Below are positions 2,096 to 44,365 of a stretch of DNA of 64,000 nt, in pieces. The notes beneath the pieces are model-generated. The model saw only the letters and a program-made list of their open reading frames with translations. It was not told where the DNA came from and searched no databases. A program made the position numbers and the translations under genes. The number at the start of each line of letters is the position of its first letter. Within the stretch, counting starts at the first letter, position 1. The DNA comes from Utricularia gibba. Taxonomy: Eukaryota; Streptophyta; Magnoliopsida; Lamiales; Lentibulariaceae. The stretch is taken from positions 1,240,001 through 1,304,000 of the forward strand of contig NEEC01000016.1 in NCBI GenBank assembly GCA_002189035.1, in the 5' to 3' direction.

Positions 2096-3849
2096 TCACC
2101 CAGAAAGAGCAGTTGCAGACGATGGGTTTCGGGGCTGCAGAGCTTCCCGCATTCTCGTCACCACTTCCTTAACGGTCAGATTGAACCCCTTCTCCATCTG
2201 CAGGAACGGTGGATGCAATTCGCGAGTCCGATCAGTGTTAATGGACTTTAAACTGAGAGAAAATGTATAGAAATCTACCTCTGTGACGATGGTGACATGG
2301 TGGGCGAGGCGGCCGATGGAGGCGACGTATGTGTTGACGACGGAGAGATTGAGCTTCTCCACGTTGTAGATTATGTTGGCGAGGATGCCTTTCCGGTACT
2401 CACACTGGATCAGAATGAGGATCTGGGAGTTGCACAGTCGGGCCTCGATCTCCGGCAGAGGCTCCGCCACGCCGCCGACGTTGTCCTCCGCCGTCGATTT
2501 CCTGATCAGGACAACCGATTCGATTGACTTTTTCGACGTCTGCTCCTCCAGAAGCTGGACTCTTTCCTGGAGAAACTTCAGGTACTTGATCGCGTCACCT
2601 AGGACCGAAGTCTTGTCCGTCTTCTTCAATCCGGGACGATAGCGGAGAGAGCGAGGAACCGTTGGCTGAGCTGCTCACGGCGTTTCCTCTCAGCGATGAT
2701 GTGATCGTACGTCTGCGAAGGGGGGCGAATGCGGCTGGATCTTCGCACGGGTTGCGGAGCCTTGGGCTCCTCGTTCGGACTGTCGGACCCCCCGGGGCTC
2801 AGAGTCGTGGAATTTGCAGACGGTGGTTTTTCTGGTCCAAAATTGAGGATGATAGGAGTTGAAGCTACCCGAGGAGGAGCTGTGACAGAGGAGTGGTTGT
2901 TCGTTTTCTGAAGCTTCGCCGGCGGCGGCGTGAATTCGTTCATCCGCGATAAACATGGGATCTCGAAGTTTTCCCCGAGAACTGCCGCCAATTCTTCGTC
3001 CATCTCTTCCAGGAGATCAAACTGATCGGAGAACATGGGATTGTCCAGTCCCTGGAACATCTCCTCCTGTTCCCAAACAAAATGCAACACACCAGACACC
3101 GATTAAATTTCTTTTCTTAAAAAAAGAACCAATAAAAAAATATTTCACCAACGTGCTTATTAAAGCAGTTAGTTTTCTATGTAGAATTAACCAACGGTAA
3201 AAGTAACGACTCTGTTGCACTCCGGGGAAAAGCAACAAAAATGATGACACAGTTGTCAGTGGGCATGTGTGAGGGTGCCACGTGTTCATTTATTTTAATT
3301 TTAACGGTTTTATTAGTCTAAAGCAGTCACTTTCGTCGGCAAACACAAACCTAAATAATTGAACTGAAATCCCACTAAGAAAAAGTGTAGCACCAGCTCG
3401 ACTCTGGTTACGTTCCCTTTTGCTTCTCACGCCTATCTCCTCCCTCCCCAACATACACACGCAGACACCATTTAACTGGTTAATTCCTTCTTAAGCAGTT
3501 AATCGGGACACACCCCAAAATGGAGCTTTGGAAGGCATCTAGCTGGTTCGGGATGAATGATTCTGGAGGTGTAGTGTTTTAGAACAGTGGAGGAGAGACT
3601 CCTAACAGCGCCCCTAATCCTCAAACCCCGACATGATTAGTAAAGAAATCAGGAAAGACAGTGATTAGTATGTTGGATAGGGGTTTAGTGTTGTTCTTAA
3701 GGTTGGGTGTTGGATAGGGGTTTTCCAAGTAAGAGTCTGGGTGTTTTTTGATTCCCAAAGAGAGTTTTAAAGTTCATTCGAGAAGGAGAAGGGAAGGCTA
3801 CCACTTCTGCGAGCCACGGAGCTGCGGAGGAATCCACCGATGAGAACAT
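2096..3849 (-). CDS. bHLH18/19/20/25-type transcription factor with one-base frameshift
   Basis: Nuclear DNA-binding regulator of the bHLH18/25 clade. Proposed exons on the minus strand: 3802-3849 (start MFSSVDSSAAPWLAEV), 2279-3066 and 2096-2197, in consistent phase. The middle exon holds an acidic N-terminus (MFQGLDNPMFSDQFDLLEE), the basic-helix block (HIIAERKRREQLSQRFLALS), second helix (TSVLGDAIKYLKFLQERV) and an ACT-like region (LPEIEARLCNSQILILIQCE). The last exon carries FNLTVKEVVTRMREAL. Reading breaks at 2626-2635: the family's VPGLKK would need CCCGGGATTG, but one G is missing, so the frame runs into TGA. The exon length (788, one short of a codon multiple) agrees. The usual intron just before the MDK position is absent here, and the conserved Met is Thr. 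Either a pseudogene or a sequence error; everything else is preserved. Confidence 0.8.
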
Positions 3850-6410
3850 TGCTTCGTCTGCAGAAGTGGAAAACATCGATGCTCAAAGAAGATGGGGAGC
3901 CGTCGGGAATCGCGATAACATAAAGAAGAAAGAAAACGCACCTGTGACCAGAGAGTTGCAGATCATTTGAGGAGAAGAAGCAGTATGCATAGGTTAAATA
4001 GACAGTCTTTACGCATTACGAGAGGCTACAAATGTGCCACTGCTTTGTCCGCTTCCTGGAGTAGGCCCCCTCACATACAATCTCTAGTATAATCAATCAC
4101 AAACCAGTAGGTTATAGGCCAATTTATGTGTACAGCCCAAACCAGAAGCTTCACTCTGAAATGACCTCCTCATTCTTTTCATTTTGTGATATCCAACCTA
4201 ATGGATCAACTATTACCCGGACCTTCTTCCAACCCGCTACACACTGAGTTTCTATACGCTTCCGGTTGCCATTTACAGGACAGCAGAATTCGTGCCTCTG
4301 ACAACTCTATGTACAGGGAACTAGGGGTTCGGGTTCCTTGGTAGTTATGTTGCATGGAATGGAATGAAGATGAGCTCATGAATGGCTGCTCTCCATGGAC
4401 TCGTCAACATCCTTAAACAATGGCGAGAGTTACATTTCATGAGTTCCCCAAAATACTACGCTCGCAGAAGACAAAAGGGCATTTAGCACATTCGCCTCCG
4501 TCTCCCTGATGTGACCCCAGACCTGGAAATTTGCACTAGGAACTCGTGTAGCTGCCGAGCTTGACTGCTGCGCCATTGCTGCTCTCCACTGAGGAATAGG
4601 ATAGTCCGCCATGATCATCTGCAACGCCCCTCCCAAGAAATAACCCTCCATAACAACACACATTCGTCGCCTCGGATGGAATTCATCTGCCTCTAAATCT
4701 AAGATGCAGAAGTGGCCCAGAGGAAAAAGAATCATCATCATATGATTCATTCCTCATTTTTCACAACTTGTGCACCATGTGTTTCTTTTATTATTATTAT
4801 TATTATTATTATTATCCCCAATCATATTCTTTTGTTTCAGATCATCCCATGCCACAATAACCTTCCTTTTTCGAGTACAAATTAAAAATATACATTTTTA
4901 TAAAAATAAAAATAATTTATATAATAAAATTATTTTAAACGTTCCTTAAAATAGTTACATTTCAGATAGTTTGAAACGACGTAGGTTTTGGATAATGAGA
5001 AAGGTGGGTAATGTTTTTTGAATGGTAATAGTATATATATTACATGTATTTAAATTAGGGTCCTTTTGAAAATTAATCATTCTAATTTTATTTCTCAATT
5101 TTTTACATATATTGATTTTTATTACATTCTCAAGGGATGATGCCTAATTTTATAATACATGTATTAAAAGGGGTGGGGGTGGGGGCCGGGTATTGGTGAA
5201 ATTAATGGTGTGCCCAAGGTGCCCTCTGACCGATGTGCCGTGGCGGACTGGACCACATGGGGAGAGGAGGAGTGGTGGGGCCGGGGTGGATGGGGCAGTT
5301 TTGTCCTTGTACTATTATTTTGTCCCCGGGATAAGATTCCGCGTCCTCTTAGCCGCTCGGGAATCGTATGGACCTCTTTAACAATCCCAACAATATCCCC
5401 ACCAATTTTCTTCTTTATTATTTTCCATGGACACCATTGGAATTGCACAAAAACCTTTTCCCGCATTACTGGACCCACACCCCCCCTATTTATTTATTTA
5501 TTTATTTATTTATTAATAAAAAATACACAAATATTCTATTTTCACCCCAAGCCAGCCGGGTAAAGCTAAATCCCAGATCTACTTTCCCAACTCTCGGTTT
5601 TCATTAGCTATTTTCTTTTTTTTTTTGAAAAATACTCTTGATAAAATAAAAGTTATTTTACCTCGAAAAAGTGCATATACAGTACACGTTCGAAAATCAA
5701 TTCCATACTAATAAATTCAATTCGATTCAGTTAGGATTGATTCTAACTTCCAAAATATGTATCTGATTGTGTTTTATAAGAATAGATTTTTGAGAATTAA
5801 TTCAATTCTTTGAAAAGCATGTATGTGTAGTTTCTCATGCATAATTGTGTTTTAAGAATTGATTTTAACAAATGAATTACTATTATACTCATTTATTAAT
5901 ACAGAATCACAATTAATACTATTTTGAAAATAAATACTAATTTGATAATATTATTTAAGAGTTTGATAAATATCGATATTATATAATATATTTTATTTAA
6001 ATAAATTAATGAAATATGATTATCAATCAATATGAGTAAATATATAATTTATATAAAAATAACTTTTTAATTCTTTTATACTTCAAACATTAATCACTTT
6101 TATAATAACCATTTTTTTCAAATATATATCAATTTTAAAATCTTTTGAAATCAATTTTGGAACGATTTTGAAAAGCGTTACAATAAATTCCCAACTTGTG
6201 TTTTGAATTGCTTTTTAAATTGAAGAAACGAATCCCGTATGGTTGATTAATTTAAGGGGAAGAGGGAGCGGATTTGTCGTCTGAATTTCCGATTTGGGAA
6301 AATAGGAAGGCGACAATATACATTCATACGTATCCCATCCTTGAAAAGTCCTAATGAACGGAAAAGAAGAGGTGATGGGTCTCCATCAGAGAAGGGAATA
6401 AAACGTGCAT
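3850..6410. other. Intergenic with microsatellites
   Basis: Mostly AT-rich DNA without recognisable genes. It contains a (TTA)n tract at about 4784-4814 and a (TTTA)n tract at about 5487-5513. The minus-strand frame at 4430-4750 is listed separately. Confidence 0.45.
4430..4750 (-). other. Unassigned 106-codon open frame
   Basis: An uninterrupted ATG-started frame with protein-like composition (EADEFHPRRRMCVVMEGYFL, then MIMADYPIPQWRAAMAQQ). I recognise no family. No matching exon chain, TATA box or neighbour supports it. It may be a gene remnant or chance. Confidence 0.15.
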
Positions 6411-6490
6411 TATGACTTGTGAAGAACAGCAACTTGATGTATTGCCGAACATTGTCTTTTATCTACTGAAAAGGGGAGCGGGAGCCGACG

Positions 6491-6685
6491 CTGTAACGGC
6501 CCGCCCTTCCATGGAGCTCCATAGTGGACATGATTCACTCCTGATGGCAAGCCTACTCCAGGAGGCGCTAACTTGTAACGACCCATGTCCGACTTCGCAC
6601 GATATCTGGTGTAGGGAGTCACCCATCTTCACATAATTTCATGCCGAATACGCTTAATTTTAGATTTACTGCCAATGATCCTCCA
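6491..6685 (-). repeat. Cassandra-like LTR fragment with 5S rRNA-like segment
   Basis: On the minus strand, positions 6681 to 6608 resemble plant 5S rRNA: GGATC start, a degenerate TTAAGCGT...TCGG block (the region of internal promoter box A), then GATGGGTGAC as in 5S. On the plus strand the piece begins TGTAACGGCCCGCCC, a typical LTR start. 5S-like sequence inside an LTR is the hallmark of Cassandra TRIM retrotransposons; a 5S-derived SINE is the alternative. The copy is diverged and no second LTR was found. Confidence 0.55.
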
Positions 6686-6689
6686 TCAT

Positions 6690-7130
6690 GTTTGAAAAAA
6701 ACAAGATAAAATCGAGTAAATTATTAGTGATTCACAATTTCTTATATATATGATTATTTCACTTTCAAATCTTAATGTGAGATCGTTTGTTCTAATATAT
6801 GCTCTCAAATTGAACTAATATTTGATTTAGTCAAGACTTGTTTTTTTGTGTGATTGTAAATATTGTTCAGATTATAGATTAATCTAACTTTTGTCATTTA
6901 ATTTCATTGTATCTCTTTATTTTTTTAATCCGCAAGACAAACGCTTTGATATCATGTTGAAACTAAGGATTTAATGGATTGAATGAGTACATATGAAGTT
7001 CAAATATATAAAACACGTGAATCATATTAAAAAAGATTAGGCTAAATCAATTATTAATGATCCATAATCTATTATATACATGATTATTTTATTTTTAAAT
7101 CTGGATATGGTATCATTTGTTCTAATACGG
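6690..7130. repeat. Dispersed AT-rich repeat, two partial units
   Basis: Two diverged copies of one motif occur here: a unit reading ATTATTAATGATCCATAATCT (here described by its core), followed by TATATACATGATTATTT and then ATCATTTGTTCTAATA. Related copies are at 16565-16770 and 21935-22110. It is probably a non-coding transposon fragment. Confidence 0.45.
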
Positions 7131-7131
7131 T

Positions 7132-7963
7132 TTGAAACTCAACCTCTCCTTTGAGGTGGGTTCACGAATGCACACCGTTTGGATTTTGAGTAACTGCTTG
7201 ATTGGGCTGGTTTTGGAAGGAGTGAGGGACAGACATCTTCTGAATGGGGGGCTGGCTGCTACTGCTACTACTACTACCAGTGAGCCTAAATACTTAAAAG
7301 CCCATGACTATGAAGGTGCTTTTGTCCAAAAGTGGGCTGAAAATGATATTGTTTTGTAAAAAAACATTTTTGTTTATAGACTTGTTGAAGAAAATAAAAA
7401 TGGTTTTGGAGTCTTGCTTCGAGGGTTCCTTCTTACAATTTTCTTTCCAACGACAATTTTTGTCGGAAGCGCTGCCCCCAATCAATCATATCCGGATTAT
7501 ATTCCGTTGCTTGTTGATCCTCCTTTTTGGTGAGTTTGAATTTCGGGTTTTGTGTGTGAAAATTGTTTGGTTTTACTTGCTTCCTGTGGTGTTTTGTTTG
7601 GTTTTATTTTAGGTGACTCGTTTTTTCAAATGGTTGATGTGTTCGAAGTTGTTTTTCCTATGTTTCTGATCGGCAGGCCTGCGTCAGATTGGGTTGATTG
7701 GTATGTATGATGAATGAAACGAATGTGTAGGGGAGTTGGAGATATTCCCGTTGAACGGTGGCTTTTGTGTATTTGTTATATACATCTTGTAGTTCCAGTC
7801 ATACATGTATTCTAGCTTCTATATTTCCCAACTCAAAGATTGCAGCTTTTCCGAAGACGTTTGAGACATCGTGAGAAAGTTTCATTTTTGTTCCTCATTT
7901 GTATTGTAGGTGTTAATGATTTCCTTTGACGGGCATCTAAGTTGGTTATTTTGAGATTTGCGG
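7132..7963 (+). other. RMD5 leader region with probable 5'UTR intron
   Basis: Upstream of the RMD5-like start there is a donor TTTTTG|GTGAGT at 7530 and an acceptor TTGTATTGTAG ending at 7909. This gives a leader intron of about 380 bases, removed before the ATG at 7964. The leader exon and promoter boundaries are not resolved. Confidence 0.5.
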
Positions 7964-9124
7964 ATGGAGTTGGATCCTATCAAAGATGCATTTGACCATG
8001 TAACAAAGAAGCAAAAACTTGCATCCTCAAAATGTCAAGAAATGGTTCAGAAGATTGAAGAGGAGATAGCAGAAGCCCTGTCAAGACTGAACTCCCAGGA
8101 GGATTCTGCATGTTCTTTGGATCATAAGTCGGTCCTCAGCAGTTTGAGCATAGGATTGAAGACTCTGGATTTGGTTAGCCAGCTTGAGGGCGCCCAAAAA
8201 GAGCTGAATGCTGCGGCCACCAAGTATGCGAAACTTCTTGAGAAATGCTTCAATCCTGAAATCTCAAGAGCATGCCGTGATGTGGATTTTGATAGCCACA
8301 CAGTGAACCAAATCATCGCAAGCCACTTCTATCGAGAGGGCCAATTTGACCTCGGTGATTGCTTTCTTTGTGAGGCCAGTGAACCTGAGGCATTGTCTGG
8401 GAAGTTACCCTTTTTGGAGCTTTTTCAAATTATGGAAGCCATTAGATCTCGGGATTTGGAGCCTGCAATCACCTGGGCCGTAAAGCATCGTGAACAGTTG
8501 ATGGAGAACGATTCACAGATTGAGTTGAAGCTTCATCGCTTACAATTTGTGGAAATGTTGCAGAACAAGGGCAGAGATGAGGCCCTCAAGTATGCCAGAT
8601 CAGTGTTTGCTCCATTTTCTGAAAAACACATGTCTGAAATCCAAAAGCTTATGGCTTGTCTGTTATGGGCTGGGAAGCTTGATTCTTCTCCCTACGCTGA
8701 ACTGCTGTCCCCTGCGCACTGGGATAAGCTTGCCGAGGAAGTGAAGAGGCAGTTCTGCAATCTCATGGGACAATCATACGATTCTCCACTGAGTGTAACA
8801 GTTGCCGTCGGTGTTCAGGCGTTGCCAACTCTTCTGAAGCTGATGAATGTGATGTCGGGAAGGAAACAGGAATGGCAGACCATGAAACAGTTGCCTGTCC
8901 CCGTGGATTTGGGAACCGAGTTCCAGTTCCATTCCATATTCGTCTGCCCCGTGAGCCGCGATCAAGCAACCGAGGAAAACCCACCCATGTTGCTGCCCTG
9001 TGGGCATGCTCTGTGCAAGCAATCCATCACCAAGTTGTCCAAAAACAACAGCACTCGACCCTTCAAGTGCCCCTACTGCCCTTCCGAGGTCGAGGCAGGT
9101 CAGTGCAAGCAGCTGTTTTTCTGA
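7964..9124 (+). CDS. RMD5: RMD5/GID2-type RING E3 ubiquitin ligase subunit (GID/CTLH complex)
   Basis: A single coding exon of 386 residues. Family role: RING subunit of the cytosolic/nuclear GID-CTLH ubiquitin ligase, pairing with a MAEA/GID9-type partner. The N-terminal half is helical. A LisH/CTLH-CRA region follows (IASHFYREGQFDLGDCFLCE at about residues 110-130, then FLELFQIMEAIRSRDLEPAI). The C-terminus (about residues 325-370) has the degenerate RING of the family: CPVSRDQ...PPMLLPCGHALCKQSI and FKCPYCP. The ATG at 7964 (MELDPIKDAF) is chosen because it matches the family start; the frame is open two codons further upstream but lacks an ATG. No disruptions were seen. Confidence 0.93.
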   Translation: MELDPIKDAFDHVTKKQKLASSKCQEMVQKIEEEIAEALSRLNSQEDSACSLDHKSVLSSLSIGLKTLDLVSQLEGAQKELNAAATKYAKLLEKCFNPEISRACRDVDFDSHTVNQIIASHFYREGQFDLGDCFLCEASEPEALSGKLPFLELFQIMEAIRSRDLEPAITWAVKHREQLMENDSQIELKLHRLQFVEMLQNKGRDEALKYARSVFAPFSEKHMSEIQKLMACLLWAGKLDSSPYAELLSPAHWDKLAEEVKRQFCNLMGQSYDSPLSVTVAVGVQALPTLLKLMNVMSGRKQEWQTMKQLPVPVDLGTEFQFHSIFVCPVSRDQATEENPPMLLPCGHALCKQSITKLSKNNSTRPFKCPYCPSEVEAGQCKQLFF

Positions 9125-9681
9125 TATTACCTGCTGCATCGAAGATATCTACTGTTGTGGAATTGTATCTTCGTCTAGATAGAGTGTGTTCTCATAGCAT
9201 TGTTGCTTCAAAGTAAGACGATGATGTTTCAATGGGAAAGTTTGATGTCATCGTCTTGCAAATGTACTCAAAACTGTATCTGGAATCGAACACGGTTTCA
9301 TGTCACGCAAGGAAGCTTCAAGCTTCAGATCATGGGATCCCAAGCTCCACTAAATCCTCCATGGCCGCAGACACTCGACTTTCATACTCAAGTAACTAAG
9401 AATCGCGGAACTGATAATTTAGTAGCGGGGGACTTTCCCCTAGAGACAGATGAACAGCAGAGAACATGTCAAACAGGCAAACAAATAGTTGATCACATGA
9501 ATTCAGTACAGCACAAACTTCAGATTGATCCGAATAGGTGAAGTAGACAACTTCTAATATCAGACACGGTATATAACTATCATAGCTAAACTCAGATGGA
9601 AAGATGCACATTGTCCAGGTGAAGAACTGTTCACCATCAGAAATACTCCTCAGGAAGCCAAAAGAAAGCAGCAGCGCTTTG
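9125..9681. other. Convergent 3' flanks of RMD5 and IAA9-like genes
   Basis: The two genes face each other across 557 bases. This stretch should hold both 3'UTRs. The frames seen here have no family resemblance. Confidence 0.5.
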
Positions 9682-11117
9682 CTACGTCCGGTTTTTAGCC
9701 TTCTCCATTGACCCCGGGGCTGTGACAAAAGGAAAGCACAGGGATAAGTAGATTTTCCAGATTTAAAGTGGCCAACGGTTACAGTCAGTGTATAAGAGAT
9801 TCATGGGGTAGAAAGCATGAATCTTTCTATAAGAAATCACAAAATCTAAGACGTGGAACTTACCTAATCCAATAGCATCAGAGCCCTTCATAATTTTCAG
9901 TCGCTTGCATGAAGCAATGAACATCCTGTAAAGTTGAAATTTGTTATGCTATACATTGCTTATCTGATTCTTGAAGCAGCAAATGAGAATAAAATTTAAT
10001 GACTTACTCCCAAGGGACATCACCAACTAGCATCCAGTCACCATCTTTATCCTCATAAGTCAGCACATATTCGGATCCATGCAAATCCCTTGACTTACTT
10101 TCAGTCAACATTTCTCTGTTTGGAGCTTCTGGAGATACATATTGTCCTAAAAAGAGAGAGTCATCATGTTTATTCCTTCAGAAAACAAGTGAGGCACGAA
10201 GGATTACCTGTAATATAGCAGCTGAACATCTTCTCCAGAGCAGATGAAAGGTCTTGATATGCCGAATACATCCTCAAATCCACCTTCCGAAGGTATGGAG
10301 CACCATCCATGCTGACCTTAACAAAGAGAGAACCAGCACCTGGCTTACCATCAACCTTGTCATTATTTTTCGACGTTGTTCCAAGGGTATTTTTCCAAAA
10401 TGACCGAATAGGTGGCCAGCCAACCATCTGTGCCCTGTGGATGAAAGCATAAAATTCCAATGGTGCACTACTGATGCAAGTTATTTTATTGCAAATGTTC
10501 ACAACTTACTTGGCTGCAGGGGCAGCGTTGGTGCTAGAATAATTTATCTTGTCATTACCATCCTGAGATGCATCAAGATCCGTCTCAACAGTCGCAGGAG
10601 TTGCACACGAACCATTTGACATCAAATTTCCAGTTAACTTTGCATGTCCCGCATCAGAGGCTCCCACACCGAAAATCCACTTCCCATCAGAAAAAATAGC
10701 ATTTCTGGGCTCAGCCAGTCCGTCCACTGTGTCAGAAAATCCTCGTTTGTTCCCAGAAACGATTTGTTTTTGGGATGAATAGCAGATTACATCTTTTGAG
10801 GGAGCCAAGGGAAACAACGGCTTCTCATCATGTTTCACCAAGCTGAAGAGGTTAAAATCAGATTCGTGTTCTGGGGATTGGGATCCAGGAAGACTCAGTC
10901 TCAACTCAGTCGCCTTAAGATTAAGACAGCTCTTGTTTTCCTCAGGCGATGCAGAGACAGACGAACTGTCCACTGAGGAACAATCAGACAATCCTAGGTA
11001 GTTCCTTTCTCTCAGTCCAGATTCCTTGGGAGAATCAGAATCTGGCGATGCAGGGGAGCCCATTAAAAAAGCATTGCACTGACCTTGGCCCCCCACCCCT
11101 AAAAGTGGCGGAGACAT
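9682..11117 (-). CDS. IAA9: Aux/IAA auxin-responsive repressor, IAA8/IAA9 type
   Basis: Nuclear co-repressor of auxin response factors, degraded through TIR1/AFB when auxin is present. Five coding exons: 10510-11117, 10208-10434, 10008-10146, 9864-9925 and 9682-9719. All junctions are GT-AG and in phase, and total 1074 bases (357 residues), right for the long IAA8/9 subclass. The start [10 protein letters not shown] matches that subclass, as does [17 protein letters not shown]. Domain I is ELRLSLPGS (LxLxLPG, EAR motif). Domain II degron is MVGWPPIRS. Domain III is [19 protein letters not shown]. Domain IV is [20 protein letters not shown] ending [10 protein letters not shown] leader intron (11144-11748) separates a non-coding first exon. 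Confidence 0.95.
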
Positions 11118-11748
11118 CAAGTTAAGGAATCCAAGATGCAAGCCTGTAAAAACAAGACCACCCAACAACCAAACATTTCAATTGTATACTGAAGAAGCAT
11201 TTTGAACTCATAAAGAAACGGCATTGTGTAGTAACAGAAATTCGCGTTAGGCAGCATGGTGATTCCACAGAAGGAATCCTAGTCATAATAACTTGAAGTC
11301 ATAGGTGCTCAAAACACGTTTAGCAACCAAAATAGATGGAAACAAAGCCCTCCATAGCAAGAATAAAACAGGGAAAGATGAAGATGAAATCAAAAATTGT
11401 ATTTTAAAACTACATACATAGAGAGGAAGAAGTTATTGCTTTTGAATGAGGGTATTCCTAGAAGCAAGCAAAGAGATCAACCTGTTAACTACACCCAAAT
11501 ACAGGCAGCATGGAACCAAGCAAGAAAGCACATTCGAACGTTAGCAAAAACTAACTAAAGAACCCATTAAATAACGAATACGCACCAATGGGCAGTCCAC
11601 AGCTACAACGAACTAGAAAAAAACTGGATGACTGATTTTGGACAACTACCCACAAGATCTGAGCTTTTTGAAAAGACAAAGAGCCTCTTCAATAAATTTC
11701 TTCCTCCAAAATACAATTGTAAGGAGAAACCATCGACAAAGAGCTCAC

Positions 11749-11965
11749 CTGAAACCCAGTCTTCAAAGCTCCACAGCAACCCACAACCCTCAAATGGAAA
11801 TGAAGAATCTCGAGGCAAGATTAACAAACCAAAAGCACACTACACAGAATAAACTTCTGTTTAAGGTCCTTCCATCAGAAACAGTTCAAGAGAAATGAAG
11901 TGCCCGTGCGTAAATGTGTGAGAGAAGAAAAAGGCAGCAGCTCTTTCTCTCTGTATATATCTTCG
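11749..11965 (-). promoter_or_regulatory. IAA9-like core promoter and non-coding first exon
   Basis: On the minus strand, GATATATACAG at 11951-11961 is a good TATA box, followed by a pyrimidine-purine leader rich in GAGA/TCTC. The first exon would run to 11749, where CAG|GTGAGC is a strong donor joining the acceptor at 11144-11145. The transcription start is inferred at about 11925. Confidence 0.55.
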
Positions 11966-13440
11966 GCCCAGAACAGAAAGATCAGGATGAGCAGCGCAAG
12001 CGTAAAAATTAAAACTTTGGAAAAAGCGAGTAGGGGTATTGGTGGAACTTTTCTAGAGGTCGGAGGCGAACGGCGGCGATTGATTCTTCATGGATTCTCA
12101 GCCGTTGAATCATGCGAGGGAGGGAGCAGTGCAAAATAATTACCTGTCGTTCTTGCAGGGAAGGGGGGTAAATGGCGACAGCCAATTATACCTTTTTACA
12201 GTCCCTCGATCACAGTGTGCTTGCTGCCCACACTGCCCGCTCTCCTGCTTTACACATTTCCCGGGTAGCTTTCCAAATGACCCTTTTACCCTTTCCCACC
12301 CTCCACCCAAAAGGACGATTTTATCCTTAACCCTAATACCGATTGTATTTAAAAAAGGTCCACAATAACCCTCCCAAAGAAACGTGTAACACCCCGCGTA
12401 ATCATTGAAATTTTCAAACCCCACTACAGACATTCCAAGTTCGAATTCATTATTAGCTTAACGTGTCAATTCACATTCCAAGGGGTAAAAATGTAATTAG
12501 CACAACATGACGGGGGCAAAACGGAGAAATCAGAAGAATGGCGTAGGGGCATTGTGTGATGGGGGAAAAGAGAGAGTGGGGGACACAAGAAACCCGAAGG
12601 CGGTAAATATTATTATTTTTTGGGGGACAAGAAGCGGCAATAAACCCATCCTTTGTCGGGGGGGGGGGCACCCGGCCCCACACATACAAAAAATTTAATT
12701 ATTCTTTTCATACAATATCTGACTCATGCTTAATTTACTAATTCATCCTTTAAACTCTAATTAAAAATAATTAGTAAGCCAACACCGACACATCACATCG
12801 ACTTTCTAATTTTTAATTCTATTATCGTAAAATTATAAATTCAATAAGTTGATTTCATAAATTATTAAATTTAATATAATTTATTGTATAAAAGTTTATA
12901 TATTCTTTATTTAATGAAAACTTATAATATCTATAAAATTAAATTTACAATCTGATAATTGATTCTATTTTATATAATTTGAAAGGTTCCTAGCCTAACA
13001 ACCGTCCAATTTAGTTCGGTAATGTCCATTTCTGCAACAAAATAAGTTTCACGACTTGATGTATTATACAGGACATTATTTTATACAACTTTGAACTGAA
13101 TTGCGCGTAGGAATGATTTCAGCAACCGTGATGAGGTTAGTTGGGCAGACTGGCGGCAGGCATCATGAGGAATCAGTGACGTTCGCACGCTCGGACAGGG
13201 CATTTTTAATGATATTCCTAATCAAGTATGTTTACTCATAATTATTTCTTAATAACTAACCATGCCTCAAATCATGTAGTATTAAAACGTCCAAAGATTA
13301 ATGTTTCTCAAAAAACCCCTTCCAACAATTGATGATAAAAAGATAAAAACTTAGTCTACGTAATTTATTAAAAATAATAGTGTTTATCAATTTTTGTTTT
13401 TTTGGATAAAAAATCAATTCATATTTTATAATAATCAGGC
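11966..13440. other. Intergenic upstream of IAA9-like gene
   Basis: No gene recognised. The proximal part (to about 12690) is relatively GC-rich and may be promoter. It includes a 12-base G run near 12658-12669 and a TGTAACACCCCGC motif at 12384 that could be the edge of an LTR. Beyond 12700 it is AT-rich. Confidence 0.4.
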
Positions 13441-13467
13441 CTAATCAAGACGGGTGAGCTTTCTTCA

Positions 13468-15009: not shown

Positions 15010-15052
15010 GGCTTGCTGCTGCTCTCTGGGGTGGGTTGACTCCCCTTCCTGC

Positions 15053-15064
15053 TTCTATATAAAG
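15053..15064 (-). promoter_or_regulatory. TATA box of micro-gene copy A
   Basis: CTTTATATAGAAG on the minus strand, 45 bases before the ATG and conserved in position with copy B. Confidence 0.5.
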
Positions 15065-16264: not shown

Positions 16265-16296
<32 letters not shown>

Positions 16297-17290: not shown

Positions 17291-17299
17291 CAAATTTCG

Positions 17300-27110: not shown

Positions 27111-27760
27111 ATGGAGAATCAAAGCTCGTCGTTCAACAATGGCGGAAAGGTGAAATTGCTCGTCAGCTACGGAGGAAAGATTCTCTCCCGTCCCACGGAG
27201 CGCCACCTGTGCTACCTCGGCGGCGAAACCAAAATCCTCGCCGTCGATCGCCGCGCCAGGTTCCGTGAAATTGTTGTAAAACTCAATTCTCTCGCAAATA
27301 GAGCTCCTGACTCCGAGATTTGCGTCAAGTACCAGCTCCCGGCGAGGATCTGGACGCCCTCGTTTCCTTGATCGACGATGAGGACGTGGCACAAATGATG
27401 GTGGAGCACGACCGCGCGCAGCGGATCTCATCCAAACCGGCGCGTCTCCGTCTCTTCATCTTCGACACCCACGCGCCGCCCACTCCCCCACCAGCGAACC
27501 CGGATTATCTGTTCGGGTTCGATAAGGAGTATCAGCCTAGCGTTGCCCCGTCTTTGAATCTTTCGCAGATTCCTGGCGTGGATCTGGCCCACAACCAACG
27601 CTGCGGTGACAACCACCACTCCAGCAAAGAAACCGCCACCGCAACGGCGCCGGCGGCTTCCCGTCTTCCCGATGCGGCTAACGGGGGACCGTACCAAAAG
27701 GGGCAACTCCCATGCGCGGTTCCGAAAATGGGGAAATTGGCAACCAGGAGCAGCAGGTGA
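27111..27760 (+). CDS. PB1 (octicosapeptide/Phox/Bem1p) domain protein with one-base frameshift
   Basis: A small plant PB1-only protein; PB1 domains mediate hetero- or homo-oligomerisation. The first frame (from ATG 27111) gives KVKLLVSYGGKILSRPTERH, then LCYLGGETKILAVDRRARFR. The PB1 continues in the next frame: GEDLDALVSLIDDEDVAQMM and VEHDR, followed by a Pro/Thr-rich tail. The switch is at 27338-27342, where the conserved QLPGEDLDAL would need CTCCCGGGCGAG but one G is missing. The 650-base span is one base short of a codon multiple (about 216 residues if continuous). As read, the product stops at 27371 with half a PB1 domain. Either a null allele or a sequence error. Confidence 0.8.
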
Positions 27761-33300: not shown

Positions 33301-33358
33301 CGCGTTGCAGTCTTCCTTCATTAATAGATACTACGGGAAGGCCCACCAGATCTTCTGA
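30317..33358 (+). CDS. HIT4: HIT4 (HEAT INTOLERANT 4)-like nuclear protein
   Basis: In Arabidopsis HIT4 is a chromocentre protein needed for heat-induced chromatin decondensation and release of silencing. Fourteen exons run from 30317-30748 to 33311-33358, all GT-AG and in phase, totalling 1302 bases (433 residues). Exon 1 is a Lys/Glu-rich tail with several basic nuclear-localisation-like patches (GKRTRASK, RKRTRVSK) and imperfect PEEQ and AEPSK repeats. The conserved body follows: DLWKHAFPVGLE, WDQMQKVYQYNWNF, VISPFPPSDKIGVTSVQ, MKMDWVPYIPLEQR, IFILGCTQRRAGLKHLKADR, FYNPLKEDELEQSTEVEILF and KFYPVKSPDTPDLSG, ending INRYYGKAHQIF. Other exons: 30876-30914, 31001-31054, 31171-31234, 31412-31470, 31754-31878, 31951-32013, 32209-32267, 32475-32554, 32700-32738, 32813-32875, 32964-33011, 33086-33214. 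Confidence 0.9.
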
Positions 33359-34078
33359 TGTTTCAGTGCAGAAGGGATTTTTTTTGGTTACCGTATGTCG
33401 AAGATGGATGCAACTCGCAGAGTCTGTTCTGGTACATGACACGGGTTATTGTCCGTCACTCGCACCAGTTATGAACTTAAAAATGAGGTGAACGACGAGA
33501 GAAGGTTCTGTTGGCCCCCAGATTATTTTGCTGTTGTAAGAGATGTAATGATTTTTCATCCCGATGTGTTTCATCATTGTTTGCCAAGTCCAAAATGGTT
33601 CAGAATTCGTTGAGCAAAAGCGGGATCGTCAGTGCTCGATCCTATGAGGTACTCTGCCTCCCTCTTTCATGATAATGACGCATTATTTTATTATTAGTAT
33701 GATTCCCTTCTCCCCTTTTGTAATTTCCCAACGGAAGTGTTGAACTCCTCGCGAATGCGAGGTTCGGCACCGGCGCTGCAAGTGCGCATTCCCCCCTCGC
33801 TGGCTTGACGATTAGGTCGTCCACTGGGTTCACGAGCCTATTCGTCATCCATCAAGATTTATTCAGCTTCAGGGCTGATTCTCATAACTGCTTTATATGC
33901 ATTACTGCCAGTCAAAGGGGCTTCATAGCATCAGCATTCAACAATTGAGTTAATTTGAAAAATACCAAAGGGGAAGTTTCAGAGCAGAGGGATCACACAG
34001 CGCCACACAAAAAGGAGGCTGTGCTCGCATCTGCTCCATTTACAACACGCGTCTGGTGTTCGGCCATTCTTAGTCTCG
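33359..34078. other. Intergenic, possible organelle-like patch
   Basis: Holds the HIT4-like 3'UTR. At 33735-33848 the composition shifts to GC-rich, and the minus strand reads an open frame (MTNRLVNPVDDLIVKPARGE) unlike its surroundings. It may be an organelle-derived insert, but I cannot match it to a named organelle gene. Confidence 0.3.
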
Positions 34079-34826
34079 CTAATCTCGCCGCTTCTTGTGG
34101 GAGTTTCTGGAACTGGAGTCAAAGCCAAAGCATTTAAAAATGGCTTTCATGTAGCTGCACGGATGAACCTGGCCGCGGAAAACCTGCAGAACTACAGGAT
34201 CCTTCAGCGAAGGAGGAGACTCATCTCCGTCCTTGTCTTCTTCTGTAACCAAGTAGTCCCCTATTCCTTCACCCCCCTCTGCAACATCCTCATCCTTCAC
34301 AAAAAAATAAAATAATATATACTCAGCTTCTCTACACTCATAATAAACTGCATTACTCCAACCTCACATTCTCATCACCTAAATAAGATCTCAATACTCA
34401 CACCAAACTTTTACCAGTTTAGTTTCTCAAGGGCTGCAAAAAAAGCTTCTGAAAATAAGGAACGGAAAGCAAAAACCCTAGTGATAAGGCGATTTGAACA
34501 ACAACCACAGTCGAGAATTTTTCTCGTCCGGGAATGCAGGAACCTTTTAAAAGGTCCTGATCTGTGTCTGCTGAGATAGAAGAAACAGGCAACTTCGATG
34601 TACTAAAGGGAAGATGCCATTGAAATGGACGGACCTTGATCAAGGAATTTGAATCCGCCGCAGCTCCGCTGAGGAGCGGTGGTGACGGCGACGGCACGGC
34701 GTCAGACGTAAGAAGAGTAACACCAAAAAAGAAAAAAACGAAGAGAAGAAACATGACGACGAGTTGGATCCAAATCAACCATGGGACTTTGAAGCTATCG
34801 AGGATCAGCTCATCCCCAAACTCCAT
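34079..34826 (-). CDS. Small single-pass membrane protein of unknown function
   Basis: Two exons, 34635-34826 and 34079-34294, with a phase 0 GT-AG intron, give 135 residues. The N-terminus LILDSFKVPWLIWIQ leads directly into one hydrophobic segment (about residues 15-40, LVVMFLLFVFFFFGV). An acidic middle follows (EDVAEGGEGIGDYLVTEEDK), then a conserved-looking HPCSYMKAIFKCFGFDS near the C-terminus. This layout recalls short uncharacterised plant proteins with the same start and a CFG-type tail. The ATG at 34826 (MEFGDELI) is preferred; an in-frame ATG ten codons upstream exists. Function unknown. Confidence 0.65.
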
Positions 34827-37736
34827 CTTCCTACTACTCTCACAGAGAAAATTCACTTTCTCACGAAATTGACGACCAAGGGGAGAGAAGGTAGTAGAAG
34901 AACTGAGGAGGCGGCGATGGGGTCCGCCAGAGAATAAAACACTCGCTGGCTTCCACGACGCTACGACGCAGAAAGCAAGAAGATTACCAGCAATTTCACT
35001 TTAGGCCCTTGACTTTAGTATCAATAGCATATAGGTACTTCAAATCTACGATAATTCTCACTTACGCCCCAGAAATACCTACAATTTTCTCCGCCGGCCT
35101 TCCGGATACTCTTTATGGACCTAAGTCCTCTCCACAACTAACACTGCAGCTTTTCTCAAACGATAATTCCCAGATACATCACTTATCACCGTCTATCCAC
35201 AAACTCCACCCAATTTTTCAACACCGTAAATCCAGCAGAACCAGAGGTCTCCGAATCGAATTATTTCATCACTACAAATCGGATCCAGCAATGAGAAAGT
35301 AGATATCATAAATGCAACAGTTGAAATCAGTGCAGACAGCGGAGACGACGTCCTACATTTGTGCATTCAAAATTCTACCACCATATTCACGAAGGTATAG
35401 AACCTGATCGGCTGTGGAGATGAAGCCGATCCATCGGTTTCCCACGGCGCGGAGTTGGAAATGAAATCTCCTGGGCCGATTTCTTCGGCTCCCGGAGATA
35501 CATTTCGTTTTGGAGAAATTCCCATCGATGCCAACAGTTAGCACAACACGAAACAAGAAGACGGATTACTGGGCCTGGTTTGGGCTTTTCAAGCGTCAAT
35601 TCATGGGCCACCTAAATTAAACAACAAAATATTAATTAAAATGCTTAAAAAACAGAAGAAAAAGATTTTTTAGCTACATAATTAGTACTTCTTAATAGTG
35701 AAAAATGAACCCGGTTTGGTTCGTTTGGGACTTCCGTCGAACAGGAGGCAGGCGCGCAAAACTGAACCCCAACCGAGATACTCCAGCAAGATTCATCCAA
35801 AAAGGCAAGAAAAGATGGCCGGAAACAGCCGATTTTTAAACCTGAGGAACGTCGGCGGCCTGGCGCTCGGCCACATAAATCAAACCCCGACTAGACTGCA
35901 TTACAATGCCAACAGTTGCGTCGTCGCGGTACTTTCTCCTTGCGTATCATACATACTTCCAACATCTCCGGAATAGTGTGATTTTATTGAATAATGATAC
36001 AAAAATAAAAAACGCACAATGTGCGCGTATCATTAGTGTCCACGATATTGACGTGTCGTTGAGCTCTTCACGCGCTGACTGCCGCGTGTGATTTGATGTG
36101 TATAAAATTTGAAAAACTAATTAAGTTCAATAAAAAATATACTTTATGTTGATTGCTAAATGTTTGCCTATGTTTTGGAATTAGAGGATTAGGGTAAAAA
36201 TATTTCAATTTATTTCAATCTAGATAAAAAATGATGTAATGAAATTAATTTTTTATATAATGTTTAATTAATGGGTAAACGAGAAGAGAGATGCAATATA
36301 TACATCATTATTCTTGAAATTAAACAAAACTTTCTTAATCTAGAGTTTATTTGAATCAATTAGAAAAGCAGCCATGTATCATAGGGTACGTTTAAAAAAC
36401 AATCATCTTATATGTAAATTCTTTATCTTAGTCTACATGAGATAACTTTTCTAAATAACTTGAATTTATTTAAACCTAAATACAACATACTTTTTGAATA
36501 AATTTATGTTAAATCTTATTAAAATACAACACTAGGTATTTTCTAAACCTATGTGGTACATAGGTTCAAAAAACTAACCACTGCACTAATGAGTAATGAC
36601 ATTTTTGTGCTATTTTCCCTTCTACAGTAGACTTATTATGAGTTTGTTTTTGATTGTTGAATCCGTTGGACACGCATATATTCTAAATTCATGATAAAAA
36701 CCCATAGTATTATTTATATATTAGAAATTTAAATACAAAAGACCCAATATTTATATATAATTCATGATTCAACTCATATAATATACACATTCGGCAGGAA
36801 TTTATTTATGTGGGTTCGTGTTAGGAGCGATCACATCAAATCCGATAGTTGGACACTGCAAAAGCTGCTCCCCTACTCTGCTCCTATCTGCAATAAAATA
36901 CGAGTAAAATACGAATTTCCATGAATTTGGACTCCGGGCCCGGAGTGGTTGCCGTCGGTGATGGTTTGATCTCAGCCAGAGACACGCATCGGGCAATTAC
37001 TTGCCGGCCCCCCTGAGTTTTATCACATGACCCATCCATGTTCTCATCTCCTCCGCCTCCGGTCAAATCCCGCCATCCATTCCCGGCGCAACCCACCCCC
37101 TACCGCCAAATCTTTTTATTTCAAAATCCAATTTATTCAAATTTATAATTAAATTACAAAATAAAATGCTTGTTATTCATATTTTTATGATTTGTAAAAT
37201 ACGACTATTATCATTTTAGTTATATTTATCTAATTAATGCTCTTCATAGGAATATTTTTATATTGTATATAATAATAATTTAAATAAATTTATTTATTTA
37301 ATAATTCAAATAGATTATTAATTAAATTAATACTTGAAACTAACTGTTGATATCTTTTTTTTGTATGAGAATAAAATTTTTGGTTAAATCCACGTGGCAT
37401 GTTATAAAATGTTTTCAAGGGAGTTATTTTTTGTATGCATGTGGAGGTCCACTTTGACTTGACTCGGTATTAATTTAAAATATTTTAAATAAAATTAATT
37501 AATATAATATTAATTCAATAAAAATATGGAACCTGAAGAGGAAAAACAATTAATCGGATGAATGTGATTGAAAAAAGGTATATTGAAATCCTAAATTGGT
37601 GAATTATTAATTTGAACGTCATGAACAAATTATTTACTTAAAGAGGAAATTCATGATTAAATTTATCACCATTTCGTGCTTTTGATTTCAAAATCTGATT
37701 ATTTTTTATAATAAATTATTTTGTTACTAATCACCA
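34827..37736. other. Intergenic upstream of CYP78A
   Basis: 35000-36000 contains several short frames on both strands (for example RAVGNRWIGFISTADQVLYL, minus, 35353-35556) that look like eroded coding DNA but match no family I recognise. 36100-37730 is AT-rich with no gene seen. Confidence 0.35.
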
Positions 37737-37746
37737 CTATAAATTC
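37737..37746 (+). promoter_or_regulatory. TATA box of CYP78A gene
   Basis: ACTATAAATT lies about 80 bases before the start codon, a normal plant spacing for a leader of roughly 50 bases. Confidence 0.55.
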
Positions 37747-37824
37747 CGCCCATCAATTCCTTGAGTCCATACCAACTTTCAGCCTCAGCTTCTGTAGTGT
37801 GAAGTGTGAGGGAGGTGTACGGCC

Positions 37825-39502
37825 ATGGAGTTTGCGGCTAAGGATTCAAGCTGGTGGGTGTTTACACTCCCTGCGTTTCTTGGATTCGATTCCATTCTCG
37901 ATGGATACCTTCTTTTGGCAGTTTTTCTGGCATTTCTCTCTGCGGGGATCGTCACCTGGTTTTACTCCCCTGGCGGCGCCGCCTGGCAACATCGCATGAA
38001 CAGAGCAGGCTCAACTCAGATTCCTGGGCCAATAGGGCTGCCGATTTTCGGCAGTTTGTTTAGTCTCAGCAGTGGGTTGGCTCATCGTACTCTGGGGGGA
38101 TTGGCGGAGAGGATGAATGCGAAGCAGTTGATGGCGTTCAGTATCGGTGCGACGCCGGCGGTGGTTTCTTCAGACCCGAAAATCGCGAAGGAGATTCTGA
38201 CGTCACCGCATTTCGCCGATAGACCGATTAAGCAATCCGCGCGTAGTTTGATGTTCACCCGAGCGATGGGGTTCGCTCCAAATGGTACTTATTGGCGTCT
38301 CCTACGCCGCATCGCGGCGTCGCATCTCTTCGCACCGCGGCAAATAGGCGCCCAGGAATGCGGGCGTTTACATGATTGCGCTGTGATGGTTAGGGGGATT
38401 TCTGGGGATATGGCCCGCGACGGCGTTGTCTCTGTGAGGAAACATTTACAGGCGGCGTCGCTGAATAATATAATGGGTAGCGTTTTTGGGAAGAGGTACG
38501 ACGCTGCGGCAGAGTGCGAGGAGCTCAGAGAACTCAAAGAAATGGTGAGAGAAGGATTTGAGTTGCTTGGCGCTTTCAATTGGACGGATTTTCTGCCGTG
38601 GATGGCGTACGTTTACGACCCGCATCGCATTATTAACCGCTGTGAGAAGCTCGTTGTTCGTGTGAGGAAATTGGTGAAGGGGATCATCGAAGAACACAGA
38701 GCGAAGGAGAAAAATTCATCGGGATCCCAGGATTTTGTTGACATTTTGCTTTCGTTGGACGGTGAGGAGAAGCTCGGAGAAGATGATATGATCGCTGTTT
38801 TATGGGTAAGTTTTGCTGTGAAGGCGAATAGCTCTGTTTCACTTGCGCCGTTGCTTACAGGATTTGTTTCTGCAGGAAATGATCTTCAGAGGAACCGACA
38901 CAACAGCTTTACTGACAGAATGGGTTATGGCGGAATTGATTCTGCATCCCGATATTCAATCGAAACTCAGGCAAGAACTCGACGCCGCCGTCGCCAACAA
39001 ATCGTCACTAACACCCGGAGACCTCGCATCGCTGCCGTATCTTCAAGCGGTTGTGAAAGAGGCTCTCCGCATCCATCCTCCTGGCCCGCTTCTCTCATGG
39101 GCTCGTCTCTCCACCGCCGAAGTTCATCTCAGCAACGGCATGGTCGTCCCCGCCGCCACAACCGCCATGGTGAACATGTGGTCAATCACCCACGACCCCC
39201 AGGTCTGGGAAACCCCACTGCAATTTACACCAGAGAGATTCGTGCCGAGCATGGGCGGCGAGGAAGTCGACGTCCGTGGCGGCGATCTCCGACTCGCTCC
39301 GTTCGGCGCCGGCCGCCGTGTTTGCCCCGGGAAAAATCTTGGCATGATTACAGTCACTCTCTGGGTGGCGGAGCTTGTGCGCCGCTTCGAGTGGTTGGAG
39401 GACCCAAAGAATCCAGTTGATTTGACCGAGTTGCTGAAGCTATCATGCGAGATGAAGTACCCGGTGTCGGCGGTGGCGGTTAATCGGAATGTTCCGAACT
39501 AG
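37825..39502 (+). CDS. CYP78A: Cytochrome P450, CYP78A family
   Basis: ER-anchored monooxygenase; CYP78A members (KLUH type) control organ and seed size through an unidentified mobile signal. Two exons, 37825-38805 and 38876-39502, encode 535 residues. The single 70-base intron falls at AVLW|EMIFRG, the family's usual site. An N-terminal anchor lies around residues 27-45 ([20 protein letters not shown]), then the Pro-rich hinge [13 protein letters not shown]-helix: [14 protein letters not shown]-helix Exx[21 protein letters not shown] motif: FTPERFVP. Haem loop: [14 protein letters not shown] with the Cys ligand. Intact throughout. Confidence 0.95.
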
Positions 39503-42500
39503 GGCTTCCTACTTTGCTGACCTTTTTGGTTATATTACTGCATTTTATTCCAATAAATTAAGGAAACAATATTTCTAAATCTTTTTTACAAAATATAAAA
39601 AAAATACTTAGATTCAAAATTCAAACCACGAAATTGTTATCCGAAGTCACAAGCATCCAAAACACGTGATAAAAGTTGGGTTGTTATGACATACCATTCG
39701 CATGGGCATTGCAAATTAAAATAACAATTTCTGTAGTACCTACCATATATGCCCATCTGCGCATATATTTTATTCCAGGCTTTACTGGTAGAAGAGAGTG
39801 GTGAAGACTGGTTGGTAAATATAAAAAACCTACATTCGAGAGAAACTGTTATATTTGCATTAGCCTATGAGTTACCGTGCTCTTCAATTAGTGCTGGTGC
39901 CTCGATTACAAGTACACAATTAATTATGTATTGGGTTGTAATTTGCACCCTTTTGTTTTGCTCAAGTTTTGAGTAATTGAGGGTAAGTTACAACCACATA
40001 CCCAGTTCGATTGTGTTGTGTACTCTTTTGCAAGTTTTTATATAGATTTCTTTGGTAGTACCTTGAAATAAATTTACTCTTCATAATCTTCTTTATCTCA
40101 ACCAAAGTTCAAATTGATTCTTTAGTATTCCATGTTATGTTGAATACTATCTTGTCCTACCAAATAATGGTGTAATTCATGAACTCAACAATAACTAGTT
40201 TAATTTTCTTGGAATTAGAATAAATATGGCAATAAAAAACATTCTACACACTTTGAAAAAGAAGAATTTCTCATTAATGTTATCAAATTATTTGTAATCA
40301 TGTATGTGTCTTCTCCTTTCTCTTTCAATATTCCCTCATATCGAATTGATCATCAATTTTTTTGATATCTTATTTCCATATCATCACTATTGGAAGAATC
40401 ATACTCAATATGATCATTGCTAGTATTTTTACATCAATCTCTCGATTGTTAGAGTATCTAAATTCATGTTTGCCTAAATCAATTAGTTTTTTTAACATTA
40501 TCTTTTATATATTTCACATCATATTTACTTTAATTAAATTTAACTTTAAATATTACACATGATACTTTCGTTCACTTTCACATTCTTGTATAGACATTTG
40601 ATTTTTTAATAATTAATATTTATCTATTTTTATCTTAATTAACTTATTTATTTATTATTTAAAAATACAACAACAATTCAACATAAAAAAACTTAATACG
40701 ATAAATTTTAAATTAATGAAACTTAACTCAAATGTGATCAATCAGATCCATCTTGAGTTATATGCAACACTTCTTCTCTATATTTTATAACATCGTCAAC
40801 ATAGTTTTCGAAAATGAGAACATTTTGTCTCAAAAGATTGGACAATTATGCAACATTTATTTGATCGTGATCTCTAGAATTTGGTTGCCCCTCATCGCCT
40901 TTATCTTCCATTATCATATTATATAAAATTATTGTGATATACATAATATCGATAAATATCTGATGATTCTATATCCTAACTTGTGAGTAAATGATTCTAA
41001 ATCTTGCTTGAGGTATCCAAACATCATGTTTTTGATAAATTATTAAAAAAACACAATCTATTATTTTGAAATAGTATAATGACTTTTAACAAGTATGCAA
41101 ATAGCATTAGAATACTTGCACAACACAGATTATATAAATAAACATTATTCTACCAGATTTCAGGTTCTAAAATAGCAAGCATATAGTTTTTGATCCTAAA
41201 ATTGGCATTCATAAAGAAATTAACTATATTCATCTCTTCAAAGTATTTTTGGAAAAGTTTTTGTGAAATTCCAAAACACTACTATTGATTTCAAAGGGTT
41301 TGGACAGAGGTGTCAAAGGGGAATGGAGTTAAAATATAAAGTTTTGAAAACAAAAAAAGATCTTGTCTATGGAAATAGAAAGAACGATGATTGATTTTGT
41401 TCGAACTTTCAAGATTGTAGTATTGGTTGGCAAAAAAATAGAAATGATAGATTAACTAAATAGGGTGTCACATTGGATTTGGGCATCAAGCGATGGAGAT
41501 GCTTTATGGCTCATCATAAAGATGTAGTTATTGATTTAATCGAACTATAGTTGATTATATATTTGAAGATTAGTCAGATCAACTCCAAAAAATAGAAAAA
41601 AACATAAATATATTGATTGTGCCAATAAATTTGGAAACACTCGTCTAATGACTAATTATTTTTCAATGTCAAGAGAGACATGATGTAATCTATTGTATCT
41701 TTTCAACAATAATGCTAACATATAATAATACCATGCGAACGATAACGATGACATATGGATATGATGCAAATGTTTGTGAAGAATATTTTAAGTTGATTAG
41801 TTTACTACCCTCAAGTGCTTAAGGGTTCTTATAATCAAAATTCGTAATATGTTAAAAATAGAATATATAAGATATGTCAATTCAAATAACATTAAAAGAC
41901 TACTTTAATGAGATAAAAAATATGTTATCTATTATATTGTGAAGTATAAATTATATACATTGAGAATGAAAAAAATATTTTGTAATTTAGAAAAGGTCAA
42001 TATATTCATGGACATTGACATTCAACTATCATATTAAAGATCATTGCTTCAAATGACACATGGGTATAGGATTCGCTTTTTGATGTTTCGAATTCAAATG
42101 ATAATCTCAATATGTTATCTCATTTAACAATATTTGACAATTTGAGTTTAGGTATTGCCATCTAATAAAAAAACAATACTTTTTATTATTATACAACATA
42201 CTGTAAGATAGGATGTAGAATGAGTTTTAAGATTGTTAAAAACAAAATTTTAAATTATTTATTCACTTGTAAGCATATGCGATCATCAAATTTTGATCAA
42301 TATGAAGTAAATGCTACTCAGTTAGGTCATGAAGATTATGATCAATTAACATAATAATCACATGATTAGAACAAAACATTCACATTTTTTGAAGCACATC
42401 TTGTTGGAATTGTGAAACTAAGTAAATAAAATTTCAAAGACAAGCGAAAACAAATTTGGTTAAACATATTTGAAATGAATTTAATTAATTTTAGTTTATT

Positions 42501-42713
42501 ATATTATTTATCTTTTTAAATAGTAATTTCTTATATTTTTAAATAACAATTATTATTGCATTTGAATAATCATGTAAATTAATATAAAATAAATAAATAT
42601 AACATTCTAAAGGTAAAATATCTGGACAAAAATGTAAATGTATAACATTATTCTAGTGTAAATACACTCCTGGAGCACAACGTGCTCTTCTTGGTGAAAC
42701 TCCAAGTGCATCA
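39503..42713. other. Long AT-rich intergenic region with transposon debris
   Basis: No gene. A PIF/Harbinger remnant is at 40860-41030. Other patches (41340-42420) look like decayed coding DNA full of stops. The UGT promoter should lie near 42600-42700. Confidence 0.4.
40860..41030 (-). mobile_element. PIF/Harbinger transposase C-terminal remnant
   Basis: Minus-strand fragments in different frames read WIPQARFRI and IILYNMIMEDKGDE. They resemble the Harbinger transposase pieces QARFAIVRG and ILHNMIVEDERDE that lie in this order near its C-terminus. Frame shifts and stops show it is dead. Confidence 0.45.
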
Positions 42714-44365
42714 ATGGATTCCGGTGATCAATCTCTGCAATTGATTCTCATCCCATGGCCAGTAATGGGCCACGTTCAAATTGTTGAATTCGCCAAGCTC
42801 CTTCTTCCCCGTATGCAACTTCGTCTTCCTCCGGGTAACTGTTTTCTTTTGCTCTTCTTGGTTGCTGACATACACAAAATCTCTTTTTCCAAGGTCAGAT
42901 CTAAGTGTTGGCAGTACCAGGAGTTTCGTGTGTTTTTCGTTGCTCCGATTTTGGTCTAAACTAATTTCTTGCACTTGATCCATACTTCCACAGGGAAGAA
43001 GCTTTCGATCACAGTGTTGCTAATGAGACTCCCTGATTCAATCGACACTGTGAGCGGCTCCTTTTCCGACCAACTTTCGGCTTCCTCCGTCACCCCGCTC
43101 AACTTCTACAGCCTCCCTAGTGTTGACCCGGCACCGGAATGGAGCTCTAGAACCAGGGGATACTTCATTCATAGCTTGGTCCTCCGCCAACGATCAAATG
43201 TTTCAGAGTTTTTATACCCCGGAAGCAATCCATCGCCGGTATCGTCGTCGACATGCTCTGCACCTCGATGATTGGGGTGGCACGGGAGATGAATATCCCT
43301 AGCTACATATTCTTCACTTCTCCGGCGAGCTTCCTTGGGGCAATGCTCCATTTTCAAGCCCTCAATAATGAAGAGAATCAGAATGTGGCTGAGCTTAGAG
43401 ACTCAGAGACTGAGTTGCTGGTACCAAGCTTTGCGGTTCCGGTTCCCCCTAATGTCTTGTCACAGGTGATTGTGAACAAGGAACAATGGAAAACCAGATT
43501 TCTTCACTACGCAAGAGATTACAGAAAGACCAGTGGTATAATTATCAACACTTTCATGGAGTTGGAAACACATGCCCTCAACTCATTCTTGGCTGATTCA
43601 TCTTACGGTTCCAGTGGACTCCCTCCCGTGTTTGCAGTTGGCCCGATTATAAACCGGGCTCCATTTGTCGATGAATACCGATCGGATATAGTTCAATGGC
43701 TGGACAAGCAGCCACCAGGATCAGTGGTGTTTGTTTGTTTTGGGAGCCAGGGGAGCCTAGACAAGAACCAGGTTCAGGAGCTGGCTAAAGGGCTGGAGCA
43801 AAGTGGAAGCCGTTTCCTTTGGTCTCTCCGCCGACAACCATCGAACACACAGCGTGCAAGTTTTCCAACTGAGTACACAAGCTATGAGGAAGTGTTGCCA
43901 AAAGGATTCCTGGAGCGCACCGCAGGGATCGGAATGGTGGCCGGTTGGGTGCCGCAGCTGGAGGTACTCGGCCACACGGCTGTGGGTGGTTTCGTTTCAC
44001 ATTGCGGTTGGAATTCGGTGCTGGAGAGTCTATGGTTCGGGGTTCCGATCGCAACATGGCCTTTGCACTCCGAGCAGCAGATGAATGCATTTCAGCTTGT
44101 GAGAGAGCTTGGTTTGGCGGAAGAAATAAGCATCAGCTACTTGGTGAGCGGCGAGGAGCGGCCATTGATCTCGGCGGATGAAATCGAGAGGGGGATCAGG
44201 GCGGTGATGGCGGAGAGAAGCGAGGTGAGGAAGAGAGTGGTCGCCATGAGGGAAAAGAGCAGGAGCAGCGTTGCTGAAGGTGGCTCCTCTCACATCTCTC
44301 TCAGTAAATTCATCGAACATGTTATGTGCAACTCACTTCCCCAGTCTGATAACATATATAAGTAA
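42714..44365 (+). CDS. UDP-glycosyltransferase, UGT71-like, with one-base frameshift
   Basis: Cytosolic enzyme transferring sugar from UDP-sugar to small hydrophobic acceptors. Exon 1 is 42714-42810 (LILIPWPVMGHVQIVEFAKL). A 183-base intron (C|GTATGC to CCACAG) precedes exon 2, 42994-44365, starting KKLSITVLLMRLPDSID. The frame breaks at 43217-43222: the family's SIAGIVVDMLCTSMI continues one frame over, and one extra G (CCCCGGGAAG) would restore it. The C-terminal half is intact, with the PSPG box WVPQLEVLGHTAVGGFVSHC and GWNSVLESLWFGVPIATWPL followed by HSEQQ. If continuous it would have about 489 residues, normal for UGT71. As read, the first frame ends at 43271. Confidence 0.85.

Follow-up and report, generated by a model that had tools for sequence, protein, structure and literature searches.

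The three frame breaks in the window, the 64,000-nucleotide stretch of Utricularia gibba DNA analysed here, are very probably base-calling errors left behind in a consensus built from single-molecule long reads, produced by a generic contraction of G/C runs. The assembly itself displays single-base losses of this kind, which vary in frequency with the length and the base of the run and recur in many other conserved genes. We infer that the errors stem from an assembly of PacBio continuous long reads for which Quiver was the sole polishing step. A preliminary description of this DNA had attributed the breaks to one signature, a base lost from CCCGGG in three otherwise well preserved genes. The window, the three genes and their breaks are placed as follows:

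C402:1240001-1304000: the window, in a genome of 100,091,633 bases and 516 contigs
2099..3102, minus strand: bHLH18/25-like gene with an HLH and a weak ACT-like domain, in two frames (translations, Pfam)
2628..2636, minus strand: bHLH break within Pro-Gly with one base missing, minus-strand reading GTC CC. GGA (translations, paralogues with intact CCN GGN)
27111..27757, plus strand: PB1-domain gene, in two frames (translations, Pfam, genome search)
27335..27343, plus strand: PB1 break within Pro-Gly with one base missing, reading CTC CC. GGC (translations, genome search, paralogues)
42715..44362, plus strand: UGT71-like glycosyltransferase gene, frame broken once (translations, frameshift-aware alignment)
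42835..42993, plus strand: 159-base GT..AG stretch in the UGT gene, with an in-frame stop (splice signals, homology on both sides)
43215..43235, plus strand: interval of the UGT break, with CCCCGG and other short runs inside (frameshift-aware alignment to L097, translations)

The bHLH and PB1 genes contain one break each, where a single base is missing inside a conserved Pro-Gly pair (CCN GGN). The translations place both breaks within a codon or two. The bHLH frame switches between AIVP and GLKKTDKTSVLG at approximately 2631 on the minus strand, and the PB1 frame between KYQLP and GEDLDALVSL at approximately 27338 on the plus strand. The Pfam profile of the HLH domain is split over two open reading frames, with profile positions 5-28 in 2629-3102 and 31-53 in 2099-2674, and the match to the PB1 profile begins at position 47 and is confined to the second open reading frame. 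Both halves of the PB1 gene, along with many intact paralogues, were recovered by the genome search. These two sites are firm and the UGT site is bracketed only. The translations allow the UGT frame change anywhere between FLYPGSN and SIAGIVVDM, and the frameshift-aware alignment to the best paralogue (L097) sets it approximately 10 bases downstream of CCCCGG; the break need not be at this motif. The shortened motif itself is found at each of the three sites named earlier, as CCGGG at 2631, CCCGG at 27338 and CCCGG at 43218 (within the CCCCGG of 43217-43222). All three breaks are real in the sequence, and sharp in the bHLH and PB1 genes, but CCCCGG is not established as the place of the UGT break. 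Beyond its one break the remainder of each gene is conserved, the bHLH gene also being without one intron. No second copy of the bHLH, PB1 or UGT locus was found when the genome was searched for each. Introns were rejected as the cause of the three breaks, as a single base cannot be an intron.

The intron missing from the bHLH gene follows directly after GLKK in the paralogues, and the corresponding junction in the window is near 2620. In L117, L118, L120 and L121 there is a GT after the two Lys codons, the mark of an intron at this point. The intron loss is clean and single, at 12-15 bases from the frame break. A probable last intron, in frame and bounded by GT..AG, appears to be retained. 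A second bHLH copy at 488-886 (minus strand) begins at the same exon boundary; no first exon was found nearby and the copy is probably truncated. The 159-base GT..AG stretch sits near the 5′ end of the UGT gene and was overlooked in the preliminary description; as read from the sequence, it is a probable intron whose length is divisible by three. UGT71-like genes are usually intronless near the 5′ end.

The error spectrum of the assembly was characterized in loci that had been assembled more than once. One GRAS locus is present on three contigs (the end of C414, the start of C416, and C422). Its copies contain no substitutions across the gene (approximately 1.07 kb) and several losses, each confined to one copy, which include CCC to CC, GG to G and CCCCC to CCCC. 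The two longest blocks shared by contigs C316 and C412 match closely and together amount to approximately 29 kb. Across 47.9 kb of duplicated contig sequence, 65 single-base indels were recorded against 37 mismatches, and longer indels were few. Per run, the event rate was 0.02, 0.3, 1.3, 4.9, 20 and 30% for G/C lengths 1-6, and 0.18, 0.08, 0.5, 1.1 and 5.5% for A/T lengths 2-6. These values probably mark an upper limit for the genome, since they come from small contigs or contig ends, where reads may have been few. Over lengths 2-8 the A/T rates range from approximately 0.2 to 25% and lie below those of G/C runs of equal length greater than one. Losses were densest in a contig end and in a small contig. 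In these respects the genome resembles one assembled from PacBio reads alone. The earlier preference for a shared cause over three independent pseudogenes, namely a consensus error, is upheld by the fact that loci assembled twice or three times differ by like single-base losses and by few substitutions. The redundant contigs (C414 end, C416 start and C422; C316 and C412:822374-860395) could also inflate gene counts.

A real germline bias of the plant towards the contraction of G/C runs would likewise favour deletions over gains and depend on the run, as expected of slippage. It is extremely unlikely, as inherited divergence is not expected to leave the copies of one locus with several losses and no substitution across a gene. 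The clustering of losses at one contig end and on one small contig is, moreover, the pattern that low coverage would give.

Similar breaks are widespread in conserved genes elsewhere in the assembly. The genome search found many GRAS genes split between frames, and approximately 29 further single-base losses, all well supported, were identified in otherwise intact GRAS, KCS, UGT and PB1 genes. The scored set consists of 26 losses in GRAS, KCS and UGT loci, called by frameshift-aware alignment where they were flanked by good homology to either side. Visual inspection later added three breaks, which brings the number to 29. Splits in GRAS and KCS genes that are true introns were left out by the requirement for support on both sides. 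Minus-one calls numbered 26 and plus-one calls three at the GRAS, KCS and UGT loci, and two of the three plus-one calls represent net multi-base losses against other copies. The sequence around the 26 losses was compared in 12-base windows; the assigned positions may be off by a few bases, in the background as much as at the breaks. CCC or GGG was present at 18 of the 26 (69%; background 20%, P = 6e-8) and CCCC or GGGG at 35% (background 4.3%, P = 8e-7), with no enrichment of AAA or TTT (27% against 24%). CCCGG or CCGGG was present at three of the 26 (12%; background 1.0%, P = 0.0024), and CCGG without a flanking run was struck in none of these breaks. Three GRAS genes (L001, L002 and L003) are broken at the same G/C-rich Gly-Gly-Pro segment. 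GRAS is the only family that was surveyed without picking broken members, and its break rate is estimated at approximately 1 per 3.5 kb (13 losses in approximately 46 kb). Approximately 9 kb of conserved coding DNA were examined in the window, for which this rate leads to an expectation of two to three breaks, as seen. The type, context and frequency of the three breaks in the window thus point to their membership in the run-contraction class.

The same survey bears on the possibility of three real and independent loss-of-function mutations, either in pseudogenes or as segregating null alleles. All three genes belong to large families, in which the loss of some members may be tolerated, and the bHLH gene both adjoins a probably truncated neighbour and is without an intron that its paralogues kept. 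As the intron was also lost, it is thinkable that the bHLH break is a real lesion and no run contraction. Three such mutations are nonetheless highly improbable, given that each gene has a single lesion in an otherwise conserved sequence, that the lesions are of the type found in the assembly-wide error spectrum and that like breaks occur at similar density in many conserved genes.

The form of the breaks may be explained by the coding sequence in which they lie. The preliminary description stated that family conservation demands CCCGGG, a claim contradicted by the paralogues of the same genome, which read other CCN GGN pairs at both sharp sites. At the bHLH site these are CCCGGA, CCTGGC, CCCGGC and CCCGGC, and at the PB1 site, in paralogues which have kept Pro-Gly, they are CCGGGT, CCTGGC and CCTGGT; CCCGGG occurs in none of the same-genome paralogues compared at either site. 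Judged by these sequences, family conservation fixes CCN GGN (Pro-Gly) and not CCCGGG. Loss of the third base of the Pro codon always leaves CCGG, and hence the apparent motif partly follows from a break at Pro-Gly. Under generic run contraction, consensus calling would shorten a run of identical bases by one, C or G above all. Pro-Gly (CCN GGN) would be among the most run-rich coding sequence, and the loss of the last Pro base or of a run base would produce CCGG. Breaks at Pro-Gly would then resemble ‘CCCGG for CCCGGG’ whichever base went missing.

The abundance of CCCGGG provides a further line of evidence. The six intact sites reported in the window (2791, 5325, 9713, 12260, 26574 and 39326) are all present, against 5.8 expected under a Markov model (34*20/118), a sample too small to decide. 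Genome-wide counts are 6177 for CCCGGG, 10686 for CCCGGA, 10625 for TCCGGG and 14855 for TCCGGA, and the odds ratio of CCCGGG among these six-base words is 0.81. A 278 kb sample contains 22 CCCGGG against 23.6 expected, and the 105 kb of surveyed coding DNA contains 12 intact sites against 12.5 expected. The loss of half of all CCCGGG sites is not compatible with the genome, sample and coding counts. The coding count contradicts the statement that about half of the coding sites are affected, and the proposed check for genome-wide depletion returned a ratio that is not the 0.5 of such a loss. The mild deficit may be plain composition. The word GGGCCC occurs 20,951 times genome-wide, 3.4 times as often as CCCGGG (odds ratio 2.9), and shows no excess in the 278 kb sample (35 seen, 41.8 expected); its surplus may sit mainly in a repeat.

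A consensus error specific to CCCGGG, acting through methylated or palindromic CCGG, had been offered as the shared cause. It would account for the two sharp breaks in the window and the three of 26 elsewhere that fall at CCCGG or CCGGG, compared with 1% of coding positions. Methylation-motif consensus errors of the nanopore type would also affect a single motif repeatedly by one base, whereas the events recorded here are not centred on CCGG and depend on run length. In the duplicated loci, indels struck 0 of 88 CCGG, 0 of 14 CCCGG, 0 of 13 CCGGG and 0 of 3 CCCGGG sites, leaving all 27 CCCGG or CCGGG sites untouched among 65 indels. The majority of breaks lie at other G/C runs, and bare CCGG was never struck in the scored set. 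Together with the near-normal counts of CCCGGG in the genome and the 278 kb sample, and its absence from the paralogues at the bHLH and PB1 sites, this makes a CCCGGG-specific error very unlikely.

Generic run contraction was also modelled by applying the run rates of the duplicated loci to intact coding sequence. The model expects 3.6% of breaks at CCCGG or CCGGG; with three observed in 26 (P = 0.06) or in 29 (P = 0.085), the frequency is approximately three times the expectation, a weak excess. It is rather unlikely that CCCGG and CCCGGG, as adjoining runs of C and G, lose bases two to three times beyond the effect of run length, through a chemistry context or a true mutational bias.

The U. 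gibba PacBio assembly, made with HGAP/Quiver, has been described with 581 contigs, a contig N50 of 3.4 Mb and 88x coverage (PMC5793159), and a mean coverage of 34x was given in an analysis of the same PacBio reads (PMC8333044). When the same pipeline was used on Capsella BACs, indels were the only errors, although not specifically in homopolymers, and false frameshifts were warned of (PMC5873921). The assembly studied here is similar to such HGAP/Quiver assemblies of PacBio continuous long reads in that single-base indels outnumber substitutions and false frameshifts arise (PMC5873921). It differs from the Capsella BACs, which were deeply covered and had 2e-5 to 5.7e-5 indels per base, in its higher rate and in a clear dependence on run length that was unseen there (PMC5873921). 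The truncation of DCL3 was considered as the same artefact and rejected, since it was verified by its authors with transcripts and 5′ RACE (PMC8333044). Five of the 25 contigs inspected have sizes in exact multiples of 500 (8,500,000; 6,192,500; 3,452,500; 2,492,500 and 642,500; P = 2e-9), as if the consensus had been cut in fixed blocks.

The suspicion of a shared technical cause in the preliminary description was therefore right, but the signature given for it was wrong, the artefact being of an ordinary kind. The finding is a quality warning and not biology. Conserved coding DNA in this assembly contains a probably false frame break about every 3.5 kb, as measured in GRAS, the family surveyed without selection. 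At this frequency, claims of gene loss, pseudogenes or truncated proteins made from this sequence alone are unsafe.
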